Below are positions 51,022-51,162 of a stretch of 64,000 nt of DNA, piece by piece. Both the position numbers and the translations under genes were made by a program. Below the pieces are notes generated by a model. That model had not been told where the DNA came from, did no database searches, and saw only the letters and a list, made by a program, of their open reading frames with translations. This stretch comes from Candidatus Aenigmatarchaeota archaeon. Lineage in GTDB: Archaea > Aenigmatarchaeota > Aenigmatarchaeia > CG10238-14. Each line of letters starts with the position of its first letter. Position 1 is the first letter of the stretch. The DNA lies in assembly GCA_018304545.1 (NCBI GenBank), contig JAGVVZ010000001.1, forward strand, positions 62,001 through 126,000, written 5' to 3'.

Positions 51022-51162
51022 CGCTGGGAGAGCGATTTGAACGCTCATTCCGTTGAACGGAACCAGTTGTCTCTGAAAATCGACGATTCATCATTATTTC
51101 AGTCGTCTCAGCTTCATCATTTGTTCGAGACTGGCGCATTGACCTGATTCTGCCATCCCAGC
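51022..51162 (-). tRNA. tRNA-Ser(CGA) with 55-nt intron (51069..51123)
   Basis: Acceptor GCTGGGA/TCCCAGC, D stem GCA/TGC, anticodon stem CCAGT/ACTGG, loop CTCGAA|A with anticodon CGA, long variable arm TTCCG-TTCAA-CGGAA, T arm GAGCG-TTCAAAT-CGCTC, discriminator G73. Confidence 0.88.
51069..51123 (-). ncRNA. Predicted C/D-box guide RNA encoded in the tRNA-Ser intron
   Basis: Intron CAA-ATGATGA(C)-AGCTGAGACGA-CTGA(D')-AATA-ATGATGA(C')-ATCGTCGATTTT-CAGA(D)-GAC. Confidence 0.72.

Follow-up and report, generated by a model that had tools for sequence, protein, structure and literature searches.

A box C/D guide-like intron in tRNA-Ser(CGA) of Aenigmatarchaeota with complementarity to 23S rRNA

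The archaeal tRNA-Trp(CCA) intron, known from Haloferax volcanii and as sR50 from Pyrococcus, contains C, D', C' and D boxes and two guides (PMC7994747, PMC4090602). In Nanoarchaeum equitans, RNA-seq revealed that the tRNA-Met intron yields a stable C/D-like RNA potentially guiding methylation, and the available portion of that report describes no rRNA target (PMC3491384). Stand-alone archaeal C/D sRNAs include "double guides" directed at rRNA sites within 100 nt of each other according to the N-plus-five rule (PMC4644070). In reviews published in 2014, 2021 and 2024, the C/D guides of tRNA introns are presented as modifiers of tRNA (PMC4090602, PMC7994747, PMC11408192), and tRNA-Trp was called a unique example in 2014 (PMC4090602). 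Our search of the open-access literature, with subscription papers outside its scope, returned no report of a guide in a tRNA-Ser intron or of an rRNA target for any intron guide.

Here we describe a tRNA-Ser(CGA) intron from an Aenigmatarchaeota (DPANN) genome that resembles these systems in part. Like the tRNA-Trp(CCA) intron, it combines four boxes and two guides inside a tRNA gene; however, in tRNA-Trp the intron guides formation of Cm34 and Um39 on the very tRNA that contains it, whereas the best target of the Ser(CGA) intron is 23S rRNA and its D box reads CAGA. It shares with the N. equitans case a small archaeal genome and a C/D RNA in a non-Trp tRNA intron, but differs in host tRNA (tRNA-Met in N. 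equitans) and, as far as the available text of that report goes, in having a candidate rRNA target. As in stand-alone double guides, the two guides would be aimed at nearby rRNA sites, although those sRNAs are mostly separate genes and this guide lies in a tRNA gene, from which we propose that tRNA splicing releases it. Its architecture, conservation, box covariation and guide-target complementarity with coupled changes together suggest that the intron very probably encodes a box C/D guide for the methylation of rRNA.

The window, the whole 64-kb stretch of DNA that was analyzed, comes from a genome of 0.96 Mb labeled G000. A cmscan search of a restricted stretch recovered the tRNA-Ser(CGA) gene as a full RF00005 model (1–71, 42.3 bits, 51162..51022), with its surplus nucleotides in the anticodon loop; the whole window had given no match to Rfam at the gathering threshold, and ARAGORN with bacterial settings reported no tRNA in it. 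The gene lies between an ORF without a Pfam match and a gene for a Yip1-domain protein. Exon 1 ends in ...CCAGU-CUCGAA, with anticodon CGA, and the two exons joined make a complete tRNA, which places the intervening sequence as an intron within a tRNA. Its borders were inferred from tRNA positions 37/38 and from relatives (Table 1), and both sequence and cmscan agree with the initial annotation of a 55-nt intron at this position of a minus-strand gene.

Table 1. Features of the tRNA-Ser(CGA) locus (window coordinates) and loci of the related tRNA-Ser(UGA) introns.
Feature	Position	Strand	Basis
tRNA-Ser(CGA) exon 1, positions 1–37	51124..51162	-	cmscan RF00005 and alignment
55-nt intron at 37/38, predicted C/D guide RNA	51069..51123	-	sequence, cmscan, alignment
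Box C, AUGAUGA	51114..51120	-	sequence and alignment with relatives
D' guide, AGCUGAGACGA	51103..51113	-	target search
Box D', CUGA	51099..51102	-	sequence and alignment with relatives
Box C', AUGAUGA	51088..51094	-	sequence and alignment with relatives
D guide, AUCGUCGAUUUU	51076..51087	-	10 bp to own 23S rRNA
Box D variant CAGA, overlapping GAG of splice motif	51072..51075	-	sequence and alignment
tRNA-Ser(CGA) exon 2, from position 38 through the 3' end, with a long variable arm	51022..51068	-	cmscan
tRNA-Ser(UGA) with C/D-like intron, G000	G000:C6:197921-198087 (L092 1501-1667)		
tRNA-Ser(UGA) intron loci of relatives	L077, L078, L079, L080, L083, L096, L098, L100		

The intron runs AUGAUGA – AGCUGAGACGA – CUGA – AAUA – AUGAUGA – AUCGUCGAUUUU – CAGA, with 11, 4 and 12 nt between C and D', D' and C', and C' and D, the same layout that had been proposed for it. 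The archaeal consensus RUGAUGA is present twice, as AUGAUGA, and the guides (11 and 12 nt) fall within the archaeal range of 10–12 nt. Box D' is a canonical CUGA, while the CAGA of box D retains the GA for sheared pairs and has an A2 able to pair with U5 of box C. Searching the window for this four-box pattern gives a single match, and when the intron was dinucleotide-shuffled 200,000 times, 2 of the shuffles had it. The core TGATGA-N9-14-CTGA-N2-7-TGATG (C–D'–C') has a single match in the whole genome of G000 and one each in its relatives G004, G005 and G009, always in the Ser(CGA) intron; the reversed pattern, used as a control, has none in any of the four. A fifth genome, G011, has a Ser(CGA) intron with the C box UCGAUGA, which takes it outside the core pattern, and the only G011 match (L138), inspected as sequence only, lies outside that intron. 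Among Rfam C/D families, sR14, sR1 and others match weakly (about 17 bits, below gathering), and we therefore claim no orthology with them. The two guides had also been thought able to pair with each other through GACGA/TCGTC; the complementarity exists in the G000 intron but is absent from the guides of its relatives, so it is probably incidental.

Conservation of the intron extends beyond a single genome. Six further genomes carry it at this position, four from the family of G000 (G004, G005, G009 and G011) and two (G013 and G025) from two other families of the same order; it thus spans three families. Under a strict cut-off it was found in 7 of 160 genomes of the phylum. This distribution is patchy, with the intron missing or short in G001, G002, G003, G006, G007 and G012, and counts against the guide reading. 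The named members of the host family are Candidatus Aenigmatarchaeota MAGs and one labeled Micrarchaeota. Boxes and spacers are largely kept across genomes while guide sequences vary: all seven introns have 12 nt between C' and D, and 11–13 nt separate C from D' except in G011 (16 nt). Box D is CAGA in six introns, AAGA in one and CUGA in none, a conservation possibly due in part to splicing, since CAGA overlaps the GAG of the splice motif. The conserved C/D boxes answer the initial concern that they might be absent from related introns.

The box partners also covary. Across 11 distinct box sets from the Ser(CGA) introns and from related introns in tRNA-Ser(UGA), with boxes delimited by eye, three of the four kink-turn stem pairs changed on both sides, and the covariation score was 0.495, compared with 0.104 in shuffled sets (0/500), while slid partners gave no more than 0.109. 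Examples are the C/D pair AUGAUUA/AAGA in G025 versus AUGAUGA/CAGA in the others, and AUGUGGA/CCGA in the Ser(UGA) introns.

The guide nearest the 3' end of the intron has the clearest predicted target. In G000, the D guide forms 10 Watson-Crick base pairs with a site in the organism's own 23S rRNA, CAAAUCGACGAA, placing U2479 (E. coli numbering) of helix 89 at D+5. Archaeal C/D guides are expected to pair over at least 9 bp in D+5 register, and 9 bp was also the minimum that the initial annotation had set for its reading. That annotation had also predicted the target AAAA-U-CGACGAU without naming an RNA, and the 23S site is nearly identical, with the same U at D+5. Pairing of 10 bp anywhere in 23S was reached by 1.2% of shuffled D guides and within 30 nt around the U2479 site by 44 of 200,000 shuffles, in tests that take guides as independent although those of the relatives are homologous. 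The D guides of G009 and G011 form 9 bp with the same nucleotide of their own 23S. At target offset 2, G000 has A where G009 and G011 have C, and the guide bases are U and G, respectively. Similarly, the D guide of G025 reads GGUCGAU versus CGUCGAU in the others, and the 23S of G016, a congener standing in for G025 (in which no 23S was found), reads AUCGACC (in the stretch CATATCGACCCGG) versus AUCGACG in the family. As judged from these sequences, guide and target changes are coupled, with the caveat for G025 that its target is read from a congener. The D guide of G005 fits C2500 instead (10 bp), with an A facing a U that none of the other 23S sequences compared has. For G004, which lacks a 23S sequence, no convincing D-guide match was found in its own 16S.

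These results bear on whether an AT-rich intron with UGAUGA-like repeats, constrained by splicing alone, could have produced the pattern by chance. The overlap of box D with the splice motif speaks for it, and individual guide matches are modest when taken singly (p 0.01–0.09). However, the boxes are scarcely reproduced by shuffling and occur at no other site in the genome, their partners covary, and one 23S nucleotide is targeted in several genomes with coupled changes, so that we find chance barely credible.

Evidence for the D' guide comes mainly from relatives. In G009 and G011, its best 23S match is C2441, 38 nt upstream of U2479, with about ten pairs including one G:U, a score matched in the C2441 stretch by about 0.7% of shuffles. 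The G005 D' guide fits the same site with one internal mismatch, and where the G016 23S reads UACCCC versus UACCUC, the G025 guide reads GGGGUA versus GAGGUA. In G000, the predicted D' target, UCGUCUCAGCU, has no convincing match in the organism's own 23S or the tRNAs examined; for the D' guide, no 23S match scores above 7, and the 2441 site scores 4.3. The best match to an own tRNA (L011; 8 Watson-Crick pairs and one G:U on the 3' acceptor side) was judged implausible. No 16S rRNA was found in the G000 assembly, and a strict pattern, which misses degenerate boxes, found no stand-alone C/D gene replacing the 2441 guide. The G000 D' guide could target the missing 16S, C32 of its own tRNA, or nothing.

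Loss of 2441 complementarity in G000, together with the short or absent introns elsewhere in the family (e.g., G003 and G006), would suit an ancestral C/D guide that is now decaying in this genome, its D-guide match being a remnant. All four boxes are nevertheless intact, and decay would not give a D guide that has answered C to A in its own 23S target with G to U and extended its pairing to 10 bp; we therefore regard decay as very unlikely. Several features of the target region were seen alongside the guide sites. The 23S of G000, G006 and G009 carries an insertion in helix 89 between the C2441 and U2479 sites, a probable rRNA intron. E. coli A2503 is nearly universal in the peptidyl-transferase centre; the position aligned with it is C in the 23S of G000, G002, G006, G009, G011 and G012 and U in G005, while G016 keeps A2503. 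At the position aligned with C2452, uninterrupted stretches have U, G016 included.

Alternatively, the intron could be a guide for its own tRNA, like that of tRNA-Trp, with the D' guide directing methylation of C32 in pre-tRNA-Ser(CGA). The G000 D' guide can form five Watson-Crick pairs and one G:U with exon 1 (30–35), placing C32 at D'+5, and three further introns of G000, those of tRNA-Met, -Trp and -Leu(CAA), have guides whose 6-bp pairing puts C34 of the host tRNA at D'+5. Yet the pairing is short, was not seen in G009, whose D' guide fits 23S instead, and leaves unexplained a conserved D guide that also fits 23S; the guides of the Ser(CGA) intron do not appear to be directed at the host tRNA in the self-modifying manner of tRNA-Trp. 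We consider this explanation unlikely, and guidance of rRNA remains the preferred one.

The idea that tRNA introns of this lineage guide rRNA modification gains credibility from a sister intron. Nine genomes of the family, G000 included, have in their tRNA-Ser(UGA) gene a C/D-like intron that is strongly conserved and whose guides fit 16S: the D' guide forms 11 bp around A1408 in each of the six 16S sequences compared, and the D guide, AAGGAGGUGA, forms 9 bp with the 16S 3' end (anti-Shine-Dalgarno) at C1535. A1408 is a predicted C/D target in Sulfolobus acidocaldarius and N. equitans as well (PMC4644070). The pattern of the sister intron matched seven times in 85,488 species genomes scanned, and all matches are labeled Aenigmatarchaeota except RBG_16_49_10, which is G003 of the same family. 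In G000 and G005, tRNA-Ser(UGA) has an additional 20-nt insert in the anticodon arm.

Other tRNA introns were seen to carry related elements. In G000, those of tRNA-Met (L025), tRNA-Trp (L111) and tRNA-Leu(CAA) (L110) have a guide-like stretch before UUGA that forms 6 bp across the host anticodon loop. tRNA-Leu introns of G005 (L102), G004 (L106), G009 (L108) and G011 (L109) share a UUGAGC..CUGA-N-AUGAUG..GCUCAA core and are possibly further C/D-like elements.

Splicing, RNP assembly and methylation are steps that we infer for the Ser(CGA) intron and its target. In alignments, CUC (32–34) is complementary to a GAG of most CGA introns, as CUU is to an AAG of the Ser(UGA) introns; by eye, the 3' bulge of the bulge-helix-bulge motif fits 3 nt and the 5' side is relaxed. 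Because CAGA shares nucleotides with GAG, kink-turn and splice motif would be alternative folds. Fibrillarin is encoded in G000 (260.7 bits) and in three of four relatives searched; it was not found in G004, which is 73% complete. The intron would be freed from pre-tRNA at the relaxed motif, acting as a guide before or after excision, and its RNA would bind L7Ae, Nop5 and fibrillarin. The D guide would then direct 2'-O-methylation of U2479, and in relatives the D' guide would add C2441, so that the intron would serve the edge of the peptidyl-transferase centre as a double guide, from which the D' guide of G000 would have diverged.

A broader proposal, which we hold tentatively and at somewhat less than even odds, is that tRNA introns have become a main home of the methylation-guide repertoire in this lineage, with the 23S peptidyl-transferase region served by Ser(CGA), the 16S decoding site (A1408) and anti-Shine-Dalgarno end by Ser(UGA), and C34 of the host tRNA by the introns of Met, Trp and Leu(CAA), thereby coupling tRNA splicing to ribosome modification. 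If the guide function is real, serine tRNA production would be tied to modification of the catalytic centre of the ribosome and, through the Ser(UGA) intron, of the decoding centre too, which would provide a selective reason for the persistence of some archaeal tRNA introns.
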